Positions 34,762-55,619 of a DNA stretch of 64,000 nucleotides are shown one piece after another. The position numbers and the translations under genes are program-made. Location of the stretch: assembly GCA_014896315.1 (NCBI GenBank), contig JADBKP010000011.1, forward strand, positions 1 through 64,000, given 5' to 3'. A model generated the notes under the pieces. That model was not told the DNA's origin. It worked only from the letters and a program-made list of their open reading frames with translations, and searched no databases. The stretch's first letter is position 1. Each line of letters opens with the position of its first letter. Origin of the DNA: Limnochordales bacterium. GTDB taxonomy: Bacteria; Bacillota; Limnochordia; Limnochordales; DUMU01.

Positions 34762-35838
34762 GTGCGTATCCTGGACCGTTACCTCCTGGCAGAGTTCGCT
34801 ACTCCTTTCGCGTTTGCTGTCGGGGCCTTCACACTGATCCTCACATCTGGCGTCCTGTTCGAGCTGGCCGATCTTTTGCTCGTCAAAGAAGTGGCGGCGG
34901 CCACCGTTGGTAGACTGCTCATCTACCGCCTGCCGGCCGTGGTGGCACTGACGGTGCCAATCGGAATCTTGTTTGGTGTAATGCTCTCGATCGGCCGGTT
35001 CGCACGGGAGAATGAGCTGGCAGCGATGAGAAGTGCTGGCCAATCGTTCACGCGGTCGGTTGCCCCGCTCTTGATCACGGCATTCGTGCTCAGCACCCTG
35101 ACGTATCTGCTGAACGAGAAAGTGGTTCCGGTGACCAACCATGCGTACCAGACACTGGTACGGCAGATCGTGGTGGCCGACCCGGCTGCGCCGATAGATG
35201 AGAATGTATTCTTTCGGGCCGGAGAAGACCGCTACCTCTATGTCGGCCGGGTGGACCGGGCAGGACATCAGGTTTGGAACGTGCTGGTCTATCAGCTTCG
35301 CCCCCAGGGTTTCCCCATTCTTACCAGTGCCCCGCATGGGACTTATCGGGAGGGCGAGTGGCATCTGTTCAACGGGGTGACGCGGGAGCTGGATCAACGG
35401 GGGTTTGTCATCCGGGAGACTGCGTTTGCCGAAATGGTCTACCGCCTGCCGTCGGTTGACCGGTATCTCCTGGCCAATCAGAAGACGCCTGAGGAGATGT
35501 CTCGCCGCGAACTGGCGGAGACCATCTCTCTGTTTGCTCAGGCCGGAGTTGACCTGCGGGAGCTGCGTGTCGAGTATGCCATGAAACTGAGCCTGCCCTT
35601 TTCCGGGCTGGTCCTGGCGCTCTTTGCGGCTCCTCTCAGCGCCACGGGTCGACGGCCCGGCCAAAGAGCTGGCAGTGCGGCGGCCCTGGCGGTTCTGTTC
35701 AGCTATTATGTCGTGACATCGCTTAGCCGCTCGTTGGGGATAGGCGGGGTATTGCCGGTTACTCTAGCTGCCTGGCTGGCCAACGGGTTGTTTGCGGGCT
35801 TGGGCGCCTGGCTGCTGTGGCGAGCAGAGCGTCCCTAG
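34762..35838 (+). CDS. LptF/LptG family LPS export permease (copy 1)
   Basis: MRILDRYLLAEFATPFAFAVGAFTLIL...YRLPAVVALTVPIGILFGVMLSIGRFARENELAAMRSAGQS, typical YjgP/YjgQ. Confidence 0.92.
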   Translation: MRILDRYLLAEFATPFAFAVGAFTLILTSGVLFELADLLLVKEVAAATVGRLLIYRLPAVVALTVPIGILFGVMLSIGRFARENELAAMRSAGQSFTRSVAPLLITAFVLSTLTYLLNEKVVPVTNHAYQTLVRQIVVADPAAPIDENVFFRAGEDRYLYVGRVDRAGHQVWNVLVYQLRPQGFPILTSAPHGTYREGEWHLFNGVTRELDQRGFVIRETAFAEMVYRLPSVDRYLLANQKTPEEMSRRELAETISLFAQAGVDLRELRVEYAMKLSLPFSGLVLALFAAPLSATGRRPGQRAGSAAALAVLFSYYVVTSLSRSLGIGGVLPVTLAAWLANGLFAGLGAWLLWRAERP

Positions 35839-38948: not shown

Positions 38949-39683
38949 GTGCGCAGCTATCGCAGCTATCTTCGGCTCTCCGGGCTTCCTTTCTTTGTAG
39001 CCAGCCTGATGATCCTGGGGGCGGTACAGATCTGCGACGCAGCGACTGCCAGCGGGGGACAGCCGGCAGGCGGGAGCGGCAAACGTACAGTGATTGTGCA
39101 GGTACGGGCCAATCCGGACGAACAGACCGTACGCGTGGACCAGAAAACCGGCATAACCACCATTGAGACCCGTTCAGGCATTATCGAGATCGTTTACGGC
39201 GATATCAAGGCGACTGCTACCCGGCTTGAGTACAACCAGAAGCAGCAGACGGCGGTGCTGAGTGGAAATCTACAGGTGATCGAGGGTAACCGTACTATTA
39301 TCGCCGAGCGGGTCGAGATCGACTTCCGCGCCGACCAATACACTTTCATAGGGAAAGTGCAGATGGTGGAGAAAGATGAGAGCGGCAACGACGGAGCGAC
39401 GGCACGGGTGAAGCTGAGCATCAGTGCCGACCGGCTCGTCTACAATTCGCAGACCGGTGAGGCCGTTGCTGAAGGGAACGTCCGGGCTGCTGAGGGTGAC
39501 CGCAAAAGCCAGGCCGACAAACTGGTCTACAAGTCCAACTGGCTTCAGTTGACCGGCAAAGTCCAGGTTACTACCGACGACGGCATGAGTGTGAGCGCCG
39601 CACGGATGGAAGTAGATATGGATCGGAATACCGTGCAGATTTACGGGCAGACCAGCATGTCCCTGGTGCTGGAGGATGAGTGA
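38949..39683 (+). CDS. lptA: LptA/OstA family periplasmic protein
   Basis: Signal peptide; GIIEIVYGDIKATATRLEYNQKQQTAVLSGNLQVIEGNRTIIAERVEIDFRADQYTFIGKVQMV; repeated OstA pattern. Confidence 0.87.
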   Translation: MRSYRSYLRLSGLPFFVASLMILGAVQICDAATASGGQPAGGSGKRTVIVQVRANPDEQTVRVDQKTGITTIETRSGIIEIVYGDIKATATRLEYNQKQQTAVLSGNLQVIEGNRTIIAERVEIDFRADQYTFIGKVQMVEKDESGNDGATARVKLSISADRLVYNSQTGEAVAEGNVRAAEGDRKSQADKLVYKSNWLQLTGKVQVTTDDGMSVSAARMEVDMDRNTVQIYGQTSMSLVLEDE

Positions 39684-39747: not shown

Positions 39748-39756
39748 TGTTATAAT
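39748..39756 (+). promoter_or_regulatory. Extended -10 promoter element (TGTTATAAT)
   Basis: TG-T-TATAAT perfect extended -10, ~25 nt upstream of RBS GGGAGGAGGCGG and the 39784 ORF; no clear -35. Confidence 0.5.
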
Positions 39757-39783
39757 GCCAGAGGATGGGAGGAGGCGGTTTAG

Positions 39784-42231
39784 CTGCGGTTTTGGGAAAA
39801 GAGGCTGGTCGGCCAGGTCGTAGCCGTCCTGCTGGTGGCAGTGGTAACCGTTGCAGCCGGCGGGCTGCTGGCCCGCGGGGCGACAGAGGCTTTCCTCGCC
39901 CGCCTGGTAGAAGGGTACTTGGGCGAGGAGAACAGCTTCGACCTGTTGGTCCAGATCCATACTGCTGATGCTGAGGCCGGCCGGCAGGCGCTGGCGGAGT
40001 TGCTCGCCCGGGAACTTCCGGGTACGAGAATCAAGGTCGGACCGGCGCTGGGCGGCCAGCAGAATTACTTTCTGACGATTCCTGCGGAGCGCAAGACGGC
40101 AAGGGATCTTGGCCGTCTCGATGCGCTTCTGGCGCGCCTTTCGGGTTTTAGCGGGTATACCGTGCTCATGCACCCGGTGGTGACGGTAAGCCGCGTTCAT
40201 CCGGCTTTCCGGCCACAGATCCAGGAGGCGGCAAGCAGCCTATCAGGGGTAAAGCTCTGGTTCTGGCACGGTGACGACCTGGTGCTGCTTCTCGAGAACC
40301 CGGAAGAGTCGGCGCAGGTGTCCTCCCGCCTTCAGCGGCTGCTGCAGAGAAGCCAGGTATACCGTCTGGAACTTCCAGTTCCTCTTGCCGCCGGTGAGCT
40401 CTCCCGGCTTGCCGATGGGGTAGCCGCGCGGCTGAACGCAGGCGAGGGGGGTGAAGGCACGGCGCGGTATCAACCGGTGCCTCTCAATGGAACCCGCTCA
40501 TCTGGCGGTCTTAACGGGTCATGGGGAGCCGGGGATCTCGAGCAGGCACTGCGGGCGGCGCGCCAGGTATTGCAGCTTTACGTAACCCGGGTCGAACTCC
40601 GCTTCCCCGAGGCAACCAATCTGCGCTCTGGCGACCGGATTCTGCTGGTGCCTGCTGACCTCGCGGGCGAAGGCGCGGACGCAGGCTCTCAGGTGGCGGC
40701 CGTGGTGGCTCAGGTTACGGAGGTCGCCAGTGACGGGACCGATGGACAAGCCCTGGTGGTAAAAGGCCAGTGGAACGGGGGCGAAGCTGCCCGGGTCTTT
40801 GCCATGAAGGACGATCGGGTAGGGGCGGAGATCGGCAGTGCTACTATCGACTCTCCCCGGCTTAAGCTGATCGCTGCCCTGAACCGGGCCGAGCAGCTTT
40901 TGACCTCCGCACAGAGCAGCGGTCAGGAACTGCCGCAGGTCCTGGACGAGCTGGAAGCTGCCCTCCGCGGCGTTGAAAAGCTGCTGGACCGGGTTGACAT
41001 TCTCTTTCAAAACTCTCCGGTGGAAGAGAAAGATCAACTCCTCTTGACCCTGGCCCTGCGTGTTCTCACCGAGGAGCTCGGCCTGACCGGTGGTGAAAAC
41101 GGCGAGCGGGCCGGTACTGCCCTGGGTGAAGATATGGCCGGCTTGGATCGGGAGAGGTTGATGCGGCTGCGGAAGGGTATCGAAAGACTGCAGCAGCAAA
41201 GCGCACTGGCCGATCCCTCGCAGCTGGCACCCCTCCTGGTCGATCTCAAAGGGTTGAGTGGGAGTCTGCGCGATCTTAATGATGGCCAGCTCGGAGCGAG
41301 CTTGCTCAGCCTCGAGCAGTATCTTCAGGCAAGTACCGCGGCAGGCAGCCACCTGGAATGGCGGGGGCCTGCAGGTCTTGCGGAGGAGAGGTTGCGGGAG
41401 GCCGTCGCCGCTGAACTGGCGGAAGCCGCAGAGACTCTGCCAGCCAGCGCCCGCATCACCAGCCTGCCCGCGGGCATCATCCAGCCGGATGCCCGGACAC
41501 AGCTGCTTACGGTGGTCCGCAGTGCCGGCCGCCTTGTCAACTTCCTCTCTGTCGCCGTGTTGACGTTGCTGGTGCTCCTTTTCGATCAGGCCACCGTGAT
41601 TGCTGCCTGGAAAGTGGTGCGCAGGGCCAAGCAGCGGCATGTGCGGGCAAACCGGAGCTGGGAAAGGGTTCTTGTCGGCCTGCGGGGGGCTTGCGAGCGG
41701 CTTGCACCGGCGATCTACGGAGTCTGTACAGGTGCTCTGCTTGCCGGCGGAGGAAGCTTTGTGGGCCTGGTTCTCAACGCCGCCGGCGGAAGGGGTGGCG
41801 ACGTCACGACTCCGGCCGGATTGGCGCAAGGAACGGCCGGAGCCTTTGCCGATCTCGGGGCTTGTCAGCTGCCCCTCATAGTCGGGGCGCTCCTTGGATT
41901 GCTGGTCGCATTGGCGGCCGAACGCCTGAGTCCGGTACCTGAGGAACAGATCTGGGCCGGTGAGTCTCTTGGGCTCTCCTATCGTCAGATCCTAGAGGAG
42001 ATCGTCATACCTACCGGGCGCCCCGGACTCTACCAGCTTCTTCTCGCCGTTTCTCGTACTCTGTTCACCAGAGCACGACGTGACCGCGGGGTGCGGAGCC
42101 AAGCCGTCAAGCGGCGGCCGGGCGGGTTATACGGTGGCACAAGCCGCGGTCGCGGTCCGACGGGTGACGGGGGCACAGGCAGAGAGCGAAACGTCGAAGG
42201 GGAGGGGAAGGCATGGCAGGTCTCATGGTAA
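39784..42231 (+). CDS. Uncharacterised ~815-aa membrane protein, putative ABC transporter permease component with large extracytoplasmic region
   Basis: N-terminal TM (VVAVLLVAVVTVAAGGLLARG), long soluble region, C-terminal TM bundle (LVNFLSVAVLTLLVLLF; AIYGVCTGALLAGGGSFVGLVL; LPLIVGALLGLLVALAA) with cytosolic motif SYRQILEEIVIPTGRPGLYQLLL; overlaps the ATPase gene. RBS fits a CTG start at 39784; GTG at 39835 is the alternative. Confidence 0.7.
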   Translation: MRFWEKRLVGQVVAVLLVAVVTVAAGGLLARGATEAFLARLVEGYLGEENSFDLLVQIHTADAEAGRQALAELLARELPGTRIKVGPALGGQQNYFLTIPAERKTARDLGRLDALLARLSGFSGYTVLMHPVVTVSRVHPAFRPQIQEAASSLSGVKLWFWHGDDLVLLLENPEESAQVSSRLQRLLQRSQVYRLELPVPLAAGELSRLADGVAARLNAGEGGEGTARYQPVPLNGTRSSGGLNGSWGAGDLEQALRAARQVLQLYVTRVELRFPEATNLRSGDRILLVPADLAGEGADAGSQVAAVVAQVTEVASDGTDGQALVVKGQWNGGEAARVFAMKDDRVGAEIGSATIDSPRLKLIAALNRAEQLLTSAQSSGQELPQVLDELEAALRGVEKLLDRVDILFQNSPVEEKDQLLLTLALRVLTEELGLTGGENGERAGTALGEDMAGLDRERLMRLRKGIERLQQQSALADPSQLAPLLVDLKGLSGSLRDLNDGQLGASLLSLEQYLQASTAAGSHLEWRGPAGLAEERLREAVAAELAEAAETLPASARITSLPAGIIQPDARTQLLTVVRSAGRLVNFLSVAVLTLLVLLFDQATVIAAWKVVRRAKQRHVRANRSWERVLVGLRGACERLAPAIYGVCTGALLAGGGSFVGLVLNAAGGRGGDVTTPAGLAQGTAGAFADLGACQLPLIVGALLGLLVALAAERLSPVPEEQIWAGESLGLSYRQILEEIVIPTGRPGLYQLLLAVSRTLFTRARRDRGVRSQAVKRRPGGLYGGTSRGRGPTGDGGTGRERNVEGEGKAWQVSW

Positions 42232-42980
42232 GGGGGCTGACCAAGCACTTCCCGGGGAGCAGCAAGCCGGTCCTCGTCGATTTCAACCTGGCCGTGGCTC
42301 CGGGAGAGACTGTAGTCATCATGGGGCCGTCGGGTGCGGGCAAAAGCACCTTGTTGCGGGTGATCGACCGGTTACTTGAACCTGACGAAGGCGAGGTTTT
42401 CTGGAACGGAATTCCCGTTCACCAGTTGCAGGGCGAGCAGCTGCGCCGCTGGCGGCGGCAGGTGGGTTTCGTTTTCCAGCAGCACAGCCTATTTGAACGG
42501 ATGACGGTGCTGGAAAACTGTCTGCTTGGGCCGCGGCTTGCCGGCATACCCGAGGCCCAAGCCCGGGAACGGGCCCTGGCGGCGCTGGCGCGGGTCGGTC
42601 TCGCGCACCTGGCCGACCGCTGGCCGGCGCAGCTCTCCGGCGGGGAACGCCAGCGGGTGGCCATCGCCCGGGCGCTGAGCATGGAGCCGGAACTGATGCT
42701 CTGGGATGAGCCCACGGCCAGCCTCGACCCGCTGCTGGTGGGTGAAGTGAAGCAGTGCCTGGCAGCTCTGGCGGCCGAAAGGAGCTGTGCGATGCTGGTG
42801 GTCACCCACGAGGTCGGCTTTGCCTGGGAGATTGCCTCCCGGGTCGTGCTCATGGAGGCCGGCCGCAAGGTGGAGGAGGGAGAGCCGGGAGAGCTTTTCT
42901 CTCATCCCCGTACTGAACTGGGCCGCAAGTACCGTCAGCTGATCAGCGAAGGATTAGCTCTCTACCTGACGAATAAGTGA
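42213..42980 (+). CDS. ABC transporter ATP-binding protein (amino-acid/GlnQ-like subfamily)
   Basis: Walker A GPSGAGKST, Q-loop VFQQHSLF, signature LSGGERQRVAIARAL, Walker B LMLWDEPTASLDP, H-loop VVTHE. Confidence 0.95.
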   Translation: MAGLMVRGLTKHFPGSSKPVLVDFNLAVAPGETVVIMGPSGAGKSTLLRVIDRLLEPDEGEVFWNGIPVHQLQGEQLRRWRRQVGFVFQQHSLFERMTVLENCLLGPRLAGIPEAQARERALAALARVGLAHLADRWPAQLSGGERQRVAIARALSMEPELMLWDEPTASLDPLLVGEVKQCLAALAAERSCAMLVVTHEVGFAWEIASRVVLMEAGRKVEEGEPGELFSHPRTELGRKYRQLISEGLALYLTNK

Positions 42981-42999: not shown

Positions 43000-43845
43000 A
43001 TGACAGCAGTGGCGGAGGCATCAGGGGTTGCCCTGCACACAGGAGTCGCGGCTCATGTTCGCCTTCGGGCAGCCCGGCCGGGAAGCGGTATTCTCTTCGT
43101 TCGTACGGATCTTCCCGGCTCTCCGTCGATTCCCGCAAGCATAACCCATGTCATCCCGGAACGTCGCAGCACGGCCCTGTCCGATCCCGCCACCGGGGCG
43201 ACGATCCGCACGGTCGAACATTTCCTGGCAACCTGTTTTGTGCTGGGTGTGCAGGATTGCATACTGGAGGTGGACGGGCCGGAGCTGCCCGCAGGAGATG
43301 GGGCGGCTCTCTACTGGGTCGACCTTGTCCGGCAGGCGGGTCTGGATGTCCCGGCCTGCCGGTACGATGCACCGAAGCTTCCTCAACCGGTTGTCATAGA
43401 AGACGAGGAAGGCGATGTCGCGACTTTTATCGCCGCCTTTCCGGCCGACGAGTTTTCTGCTTACTATGTTTTCGTCCCTCCTTATCCCGGACAAGCGGTT
43501 CAAGTTGCCGCCTATGTGGACGGCAGCAGCACAGATGCGGCCGACTTCTTCGTTCGCAACCTCGCTCCTGCCCGGACGCCGGCGTTTCTCGAGGAGATTG
43601 CCACCTTGCGGGAGGCAGGGCTCGGGCTTGGGGTAAGCGAGGAGCAAACCTGCCTGCTCAGCGCCGCCGGACCGGTCGGCAAGTGGCGGTTCCCCGACGA
43701 ACCGGCCCGCCACAAACTGGTGGATCTGCTGGGAGATCTCTTTCTGGCCGGCCGTTTCCGGGCGCGCCTTGTGGCGGTACGGACCGGGCACCGCCACAAT
43801 GCCCTGCTGGCCCGCCGGGTATGGGAGATGCTTGGGGGCAGGTGA
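43000..43845 (+). CDS. lpxC: UDP-3-O-acyl-N-acetylglucosamine deacetylase LpxC
   Basis: GVALHTG, TVEHFLA, ARHKLVDLLGDL, GHRHNALLAR motifs (Zn-binding H/H/D and catalytic His). Confidence 0.92.
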   Translation: MTAVAEASGVALHTGVAAHVRLRAARPGSGILFVRTDLPGSPSIPASITHVIPERRSTALSDPATGATIRTVEHFLATCFVLGVQDCILEVDGPELPAGDGAALYWVDLVRQAGLDVPACRYDAPKLPQPVVIEDEEGDVATFIAAFPADEFSAYYVFVPPYPGQAVQVAAYVDGSSTDAADFFVRNLAPARTPAFLEEIATLREAGLGLGVSEEQTCLLSAAGPVGKWRFPDEPARHKLVDLLGDLFLAGRFRARLVAVRTGHRHNALLARRVWEMLGGR

Positions 43846-53758: not shown

Positions 53759-54496
53759 GTGGAGGCGTCGGCAGCGGCAGAAATACGGGCGGAGGGGCTG
53801 GTCAAACGGTACGGTGGGCGGACCGTCGTCAACGGTGTAAGTCTAACCGTCAGCCGGGGACAGGTGGTCGGGCTGCTCGGCCCAAACGGGGCGGGCAAGA
53901 CCACTACCTTCTACATGCTGGTCGGTCTGGAACAGCCGCAGCGGGGGCGGGTGTTTATCGGCGACCTGGACGTGACGGGTTGGCCCATACACCGGCGGGC
54001 GCGCCTGGGTGTAAGCTACCTGCCCCAGGAAGCCTCAATCTTCCGCAAGCTGACTGTAGAGGAGAACCTCCGGGCGGTGCTCGAGGTGTTACCCCTTTCC
54101 CGCAAGGAGCGGGAGGAGCGTCTCGAGGAGTTACTCTCGGGCTTTGGCCTGACCGCTTTGCGCCGGCAGAAGGGTTACATGCTTTCCGGCGGTGAAAGAC
54201 GCCGGACGGAGATCGCGCGTGCCCTGGCGACACGGCCCGCCTTCCTCCTGCTGGACGAGCCTTTTACCGGGGTCGACCCCATCGCAGTGGCCGAGTTGCA
54301 GGAGCTGATCCGGGCGATCCGCCGGGAGGGGATTGGCATTCTGGTGACCGACCACAACGTGCGGGAGACGCTCGCCATCTGCGACCGGGCCTACATCGTC
54401 CATGCAGGCCGCGTCCTGCTGGAAGGCCCGCCCGACCGACTGGTGGGGGATCCCGAAGCACGCCGGTTCTACCTGGGTGAGAGCTTTTCGCTGTAG
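53759..54496 (+). CDS. lptB: LPS export ABC transporter ATP-binding protein LptB
   Basis: [137 protein letters not shown]. Confidence 0.96.
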
Positions 54497-54518: not shown

Positions 54519-55619
54519 ATGCGGACTTTGCGGCGGTACGTTCTGAGGGCGTTTGTCGGGCCGTTCATATTCGGTATGGCGGCATTTACCAGCATTTTTG
54601 TGGCTGCCGACCTGTTGAACGTGGTCCGCAACGCCGTCACCGCCGGTGCCGGTTGGGGTGTGGTGGCGCAGATCACGCTCCTGCGGCTGCCCCAGACAGT
54701 GGTGTACACCTTGCCCATGGGGATGCTCTTTGGGGCGTTGCTCGGTGTGGGGCGGCTGGCCAGCCAGATGGAAATCGTGGCGATGCGGGCGGCGGGGGTA
54801 AGCCAGGTCCGGCTCTTCCTGCCGCTGGTCCTGGTGGGTGCGGTCGCCTCGGCCGTGGCGTTTGCTGTCAACGAGGCGGTGGTTCCGGCAGCGAATCGAC
54901 GGGCCACCATAGTCTGGCGGGAGCAGATCAGCCGCGAGCCACCGGCGCCGGTAAGGGAGAACGTCACTCTCAGCCATTACCGGGACGGGAGACTGCACTG
55001 GCTGCTCTGGGCGGCCCGTTACGAGCCGGAAGCAGGGAGGCTCGAGGATGTTACCGTGGTTACCATGGAGGAGGGAGCGCCGGCCCAGACGGTGCACGCC
55101 CGGGGACTGCAGTGGCAGGGTGACCGCTGGTTGCTGGAGGACGGTATGATCTACCGTTATGGCCGGGAGGGTCAGGTGACCACCCTGCGCTTTAAGGGCG
55201 GCAGCCAGGAAGTAGATCTGGGAGTCGAGCCGCAGGAGATTGCGGCCGAGCAGAAGAGTCCGTCTGAGATGAGTGCGGCGGAACTGGCCGAGCGGATTCG
55301 TGTGCTTGCCAGCCAGGGAGTGGCGATTCCCCGGGAGTTGCGGGTGCGGTTGCACCAGAAATACGCGCTCGCCCTGGCCAGTCTTGTCTTCGTGCTTCTG
55401 GCGGTAGGTCTCGGGGGTAGGGGGGCAGTTCGCCGGGGTGGGGCGGCCACCGGGTTTGGTTTGAGTATTGTGTTGATTTTTTTGTATTATATATTGATGG
55501 CCCTCGGCGGACCGCTGGCAGAGACGGAGCGGCTGCCGCTGATCGTGGGCAGCTGGCTGGCGGATTTGGTCCTGGGGCCGCTCGGCCTGTGGCAGTACTT
55601 GCTGCTGGATCGGCGGTAG
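54519..55619 (+). CDS. LptF/LptG family LPS export permease (copy 2)
   Basis: MRTLRRYVLRAFVGPFIFGMAAFTSIFVAADLLNVV...LLRLPQTVVYTLPMGMLFGALLGVGRLASQMEIVAMRAAGVS. Confidence 0.92.
   Translation: MRTLRRYVLRAFVGPFIFGMAAFTSIFVAADLLNVVRNAVTAGAGWGVVAQITLLRLPQTVVYTLPMGMLFGALLGVGRLASQMEIVAMRAAGVSQVRLFLPLVLVGAVASAVAFAVNEAVVPAANRRATIVWREQISREPPAPVRENVTLSHYRDGRLHWLLWAARYEPEAGRLEDVTVVTMEEGAPAQTVHARGLQWQGDRWLLEDGMIYRYGREGQVTTLRFKGGSQEVDLGVEPQEIAAEQKSPSEMSAAELAERIRVLASQGVAIPRELRVRLHQKYALALASLVFVLLAVGLGGRGAVRRGGAATGFGLSIVLIFLYYILMALGGPLAETERLPLIVGSWLADLVLGPLGLWQYLLLDRR

Follow-up and report, generated by a model that had tools for sequence, protein, structure and literature searches.

X-XATP, a conserved ABC gene pair of diderm Bacillota outer-membrane clusters with a possible role in handling envelope lipids

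What does a large membrane protein, encoded together with an ABC ATPase, do in the middle of an LPS gene cluster? This question is raised by two overlapping genes, here called X and XATP, in a 64,000-nucleotide stretch of DNA from a Limnochordales bacterium (contig JADBKP010000011.1; the whole stretch is referred to as the window). A preliminary description, made from the letters of the window, took the pair for a possible novel transporter of envelope lipid or another ligand. Our tentative answer, to which we give close to an even chance, is that X and XATP make up an ABC transporter dedicated to the envelope of diderm Bacillota and that its cargo is most likely a lipid or glycolipid of that envelope.

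The genes in the window are arranged in the order LptFG, LptD-like, LptC, LptA, X, XATP and LpxC (Table 1). After LpxC come FabZ, LpxA, LpxI, LpxB and MsbA, five labels given from sequence and gene order without a family search, and farther on LptB and a second LptFG. The two LptFG paralogues thus stand apart in the window, and the same split is common to many relatives. For Negativicutes and Halanaerobiales, an Lpt cluster with a single LptF/G has been described (eLife 2016). LptFG matches were also seen in open frames of ~1050-1140 aa in seven genomes (G205, G302, G231, G136, G257, G327 and G391), where LptFG is apparently fused to an LptD-like protein.

Table 1. Features of the X-XATP locus and of neighboring genes in the window
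Feature	Position	Strand	Basis or remark
LptFG, first copy	34762-35838		beside LptD-like gene
LptA, upstream neighbor of X	38949..39683	+	LptD_N match, E 5.8e-13
Extended -10 box TGTTATAAT, putative promoter for the pair	39748..39756	+	sequence
Shine-Dalgarno GGGAGGAGG	39767..39775	+	8 nt before CTG; conserved in L052 and L053
X, 815 aa, predicted membrane subunit of an ABC transporter; large extracytoplasmic domain; CTG as probable start	39784..42231	+	
TM1 of X, residues 5-34	39796..39885	+	hydropathy; AF2 helix 6-46
Two tandem ferredoxin-like domains of X, residues 54-196	39943..40371	+	AF2, Foldseek
Beta-barrel of X, residues 269-356	40588..40851	+	AF2; resembles EF-Tu domain II-type barrels
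Helical coiled-coil-like region of X, residues 358-518	40855..41337	+	AF2, alignment
TM2, TM3 and TM4 of X, residues 580-612, 646-664 and 688-718	41521..41937	+	hydropathy, AF2
Cytosolic EAA coupling loop of X, residues 717-755	41932..42048	+	Pfam BPD_transp_1, hhalign
XATP, GlnQ-class ABC ATPase	42213..42980	+	overlaps X by 19 bases
LpxC, downstream neighbor of XATP	43000..43845	+	PF03331, E 2.5e-59
LptB	53759-54496		within window
LptFG, second copy	54534-55619		beside LptB; HMM match at 54534-55595

The open frame of X begins with a CTG codon that is immediately preceded by an in-frame TAG, and the earliest ATG, GTG or TTG in it, a GTG at 39835, falls inside TM1. CTG is probably the start codon. 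Such a start is plausible because of the strong Shine-Dalgarno sequence upstream and because the TATAAT box, Shine-Dalgarno and CTG are all kept in homologues from the same genus (L052) and the same family (L053). The extended -10 attributed to X at the outset is borne out, as the box is identical in the same-genus homologue and its TATAAT is kept in the same-family one.

A Pfam search assigned X to no family. Hydropathy and charge predict four TM segments with a positive TM2-TM3 loop, which argues for an N-in and C-in orientation. The outline given earlier, an ~815-aa protein with an N-terminal TM segment and an extracytoplasmic region of ~500 aa, agrees with an open frame of 815 aa, with TM1 and with about 540 residues between TM1 and TM2. 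The coiled-coil-like stretches noticed in this region correspond to helices in the AlphaFold2 model, in a part whose length varies among homologues. The C-terminal TM bundle is present as well, but holds no more than three segments. The model of X has a pLDDT of 77 and a pTM of 0.61, and that of fragment 1-362 a pLDDT of 85; over most of the ferredoxin-like domains pLDDT is above 90, and a short alpha-beta segment precedes TM2. In one family (f23; L112-L114), a conserved gene of ~459 aa lies between LptA and a shortened X of 616-657 aa.

Foldseek found no significant match for the whole X protein. The extracytoplasmic fragment gave only generic resemblances: the ferredoxin-like domains match tandem ACT/HMA folds, and the barrel matches EF-Tu-II-type barrels, with a probability of 0.99-1.00 over 102-103 columns for aIF2-gamma. 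Its best match, 3a8i (E 5.3e-5), is unconvincing, with an rmsd of 21 Å. In family searches and Foldseek, the extracytoplasmic part resembled no binding protein by family or by fold, and X showed no MCE or other known lipid-binding domain. The fusion of an amino-acid permease with a binding protein, named beforehand as a finding that would refute the novel-transporter idea, is rejected by these searches. An MCE-like barrel with a helical needle is attractive by eye, but Pfam and Foldseek give it no support.

The most conserved part of the X family is its C-terminus, with the alignment consensus SPV..E..AG.ALGLS..QIMREIVIP.GRPGL..LLNR, which fits the EAA---G---------I-LP motif of type I importers. 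The EAA loop is the coupling motif of ABC importers. A consensus pattern of the loop matches 59 of the 68 homologues. Pfam BPD_transp_1 was detected in 25 of 33 C-terminal fragments (best E 8.6e-6; next family, 3), and hhalign against ten BPD_transp_1 permeases of the same genome gave E 6.7e-9 over exactly the X loop, so the early comparison of this cytosolic loop to an ABC coupling motif was well founded. As controls, LptFG gave E 0.0061 (probability 6%) and FtsX E 0.0099 (probability 4%); the LptFG control also hits the coupling region, and a small part of the signal may thus be generic to coupling helices. PotC, MetI and one amino-acid permease align in register with the loop, with weak E-values. 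PF00528 gave no match to the whole X protein of the window at E up to 1, and reached 15.1 bits against a cut-off of 26.4 in a fragment of one homologue (L047), short of a whole-domain match. A separate BPD_transp_1 permease match with an internal TGA was noted at G000:C3:83113-83676 (L201), possibly a pseudogene or a sequencing error.

X and its homologues stop soon past the EAA loop, and the two TM helices that usually follow are missing. A frameshift masking two further TM segments is ruled out, since the homologues terminate there too. In type I importers these two segments form part of the pore, so the transport path in X is not obvious. Based on these sequence comparisons, the best-supported reading is that X would combine the core of a type I importer with a new overall architecture.

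XATP is an ABC ATPase (PF00005, E 8.7e-41) with Walker A in 144 of 144 sequences, DEP in 141 and LSGG in 128. Its best NCBIfam models are TcyN and GlnQ (E about 1e-66 for both) and EhuA, all below their equivalog cut-offs; by its ABC domain, catalytic motifs and closest models it belongs to the GlnQ/PAAT class, as the preliminary description had proposed for the ATPase that overlaps X. XATP lies directly downstream of X in 143 of 151 related loci, a set that includes some loci present in both genome collections, and in 3 of the 151 (L039, L040 and L055; ORFs of 967-976 aa) the two are fused with the ATPase C-terminal. The same neighbor across the 151-locus set is a pairing far beyond chance. 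Pairwise distances of X and XATP correlate with r 0.89, and with a partial r of 0.62 after removal of LpxC, LpxA and FabZ, more than these neighbors account for.

The main alternative, though a less probable one, is mechanotransmission as in FtsEX, MacB and LolCDE, in which no cargo crosses and TM movements shift the extracytoplasmic domain onto a periplasmic partner, for which the Lpt bridge, a peptidoglycan enzyme or a lipoprotein would be candidates. X has the topology of FtsX and MacB (N-in, TM1, large domain, TM2-TM4, C-in), but no FtsX-family match beyond the hhalign value given above. Ferredoxin-like repeats are also known in proteins of this type and Foldseek gave X a weak LolE match (probability 0.54); however, MacB, LolE and FtsX are absent among the 50 matches listed for the extracytoplasmic fragment. 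The TM segments missing past the EAA loop make a pore doubtful, whereas the coupling motif and the ATPase are those of the importer class.

The distribution of X bears on its cargo. X was found in 58 of 61 genomes of a class sample and, as a strong match, in 78 of the 399 Bacillota genomes of a phylum sample, that is, in 76 of 99 LptFG-positive genomes versus 2 of 300 others. Both X genomes without LptFG belong to a single family (f76), whose other sampled members with X carry LptFG. Co-occurrence of X and LptFG is seen over many families (Fisher p 4e-58, a value that overstates the evidence because genomes share ancestry). Named carriers include Sporomusa, Pelosinus, Orenia, Natroniella, Halonatronum, Hydrogenispora and Halanaerobiales MAGs, and all 80 X matches retained out of 103 bear Bacillota names. 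With the X of the source genome alone as query, a search of genome contigs gave no match.

The usual neighbors of the pair are Lpt, LpxC, FabZ and LpxA. In 112 loci the next gene after XATP is LpxC, and 88 loci have LptA, LptC or LptD a short way upstream; the tie to an LPS or outer-membrane cluster, first suspected from the window, is conserved in relatives, where its absence would have refuted the idea. Such neighbors would suit an LPS-specific accessory, acting with LpxC, MsbA or Lpt in quality control or regulation of the lipid A supply. We consider this improbable, because LpxC and the pair can each occur without the other. LpxC is absent genome-wide from 30 of the 61 class relatives (two of these, from f9, may have assembly gaps), and 27 of the 30 keep X. 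In four families (f5, f8, f13 and f14) LpxC is missing throughout the sample, yet X, XATP and Lpt are kept, and the f76 locus contains no LpxC either. Conversely, some genomes with a full LPS cluster have no pair. Both genes are gone from otherwise syntenic clusters at the loci examined in f44, f74, f85, f77, f51, f123 and f15, for example where LpxD is followed by LpxC with no X-XATP in between; the f74 contig stretch starts inside LpxC, and one f77 genome (G327) does have the pair. Since lineages with intact clusters miss X-XATP as a unit, the Lpt/LPS pathway can exist without it. And since relatives without LpxC keep X and Lpt, the pair is unlikely to work on lipid A alone.

Several of the LpxC-less class relatives keep Lpt together with an LpxB homologue (L044, L045, L049-L051, L062, L063, L066, L067, L069 and L071), and most of them also have FabZ. 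It is possible that LpxC-less, Lpt-bearing class relatives are diderms with a glycolipid other than lipid A.

An ordinary amino-acid or nutrient importer with an unusual binding-protein fusion, placed in the cluster by chance, is very improbable: TcyN and GlnQ are the closest models of XATP and the X tail has EAA homology, but the extracytoplasmic part has no binding-protein family or fold, a permease would here do without TM segments after its EAA loop, the position of the pair is conserved across many families and X is nearly confined to Lpt-bearing genomes (76 of 78).

We return to an envelope lipid or glycolipid transporter as the preferred reading. Because X-XATP is almost confined to Lpt-bearing relatives, its cargo is probably lipid or lipid-like and carried between the two membranes. 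Inward, or retrograde, handling is our first guess for the direction, since the coupling motif and ATPase are of importer type. Elsewhere, retrograde lipid handling is done by Mla. We predict an assembly of two X chains and two XATP, presumably (X)2(XATP)2, in which the ATPases would dock on the C-terminal EAA loops and ATP binding and hydrolysis would move TM2-TM4. TM1 and TM2 would pass this movement on to the large extracytoplasmic part, with its tandem ferredoxin-like domains, barrel and helical stalk, and an envelope lipid or glycolipid would travel between the inner membrane and the periplasmic or outer-membrane side.

Of the 27 genomes with MlaE among the 399, 13 also carry X and 14 do not; 65 of the 78 X genomes have no MlaE. 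A genome-wide search of the source genome found no MlaE (PF02405) and no MCE proteins (PF02470). Strict complementarity of X and Mla is not supported, and X is no simple Mla substitute, since 13 genomes have both and nine Lpt-bearing genomes have neither; the X/MlaE split tracks mostly a few clades and is thus not independent evidence. Mla has been reported as absent from Halanaerobiales and present in only a few Limnochordia, and undiscovered lipid systems have been proposed in Veillonella parvula (PMC10665443). Together with the absence of MlaE from most X genomes, this pattern is consistent with a lipid-handling role for X in bacteria without Mla. A broader proposal, which we regard as unlikely, is that X-XATP founds an architectural class of its own among ABC lipid transporters, with a type I importer core cut at the coupling loop and an extracytoplasmic lipid-handling arm, and is the ancestral retrograde system of diderm Bacillota, standing in for Mla where MlaEFD is missing.

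Present in 76 of the 99 Lpt-bearing genomes sampled, X-XATP is among the most regular members of the diderm Bacillota outer-membrane gene cluster. For bacteria without Mla and Lol, it offers a defined two-gene target in the question of how lipids move between membranes. The carriers Sporomusa and Pelosinus are cultivable and some relatives naturally lack the pair, which makes the question of lipid movement testable.

Our search of the open-access literature, with Taib et al. 2020 outside its scope, found no description of the pair; an outer-membrane cluster paper names three other unclear genes (COG0816, COG4372 and COG0750), X not among them. Among known systems, the initial view, which set the pair apart from Lpt, MsbA, Mla and Lol, holds by the tests made, X having no PF02405, PF02687 or LptFG match. 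LptB2FG shares its gene neighborhood and co-occurrence with X; its own LptB and two LptFG proteins are separately encoded in the window, which rules out X-XATP as an LptBFG replacement, and the hhalign value for LptFG is at the control level given above. Like the type VII systems FtsEX, MacB and LolCDE, X is predicted to have four TM segments with a large domain between TM1 and TM2, but its coupling would run through the EAA tail and not the TM2-TM3 loop. MlaFEDB and MCE systems are similar in being ABC systems of an outer-membrane gene cluster, and their periplasmic barrel and helical region are echoed, by resemblance only, in X; a further link is that MlaE is mostly absent where X is present. 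They differ in that X matches neither PF02405 nor PF02470, a profile test that a very divergent barrel could escape, and that the X system holds everything except the ATPase in one chain. Type I importers (BPD_transp_1: PstA, PhnE, PotC, MetI and PAAT permeases) have no counterpart to the extra N-terminal TM segment and extracytoplasmic domain of X, which ends two TM segments short of them and has no binding protein in its domain or among its conserved neighbors. With these importers, X shares the EAA motif in register and three TM segments before the loop oriented as expected, and XATP is of their class.
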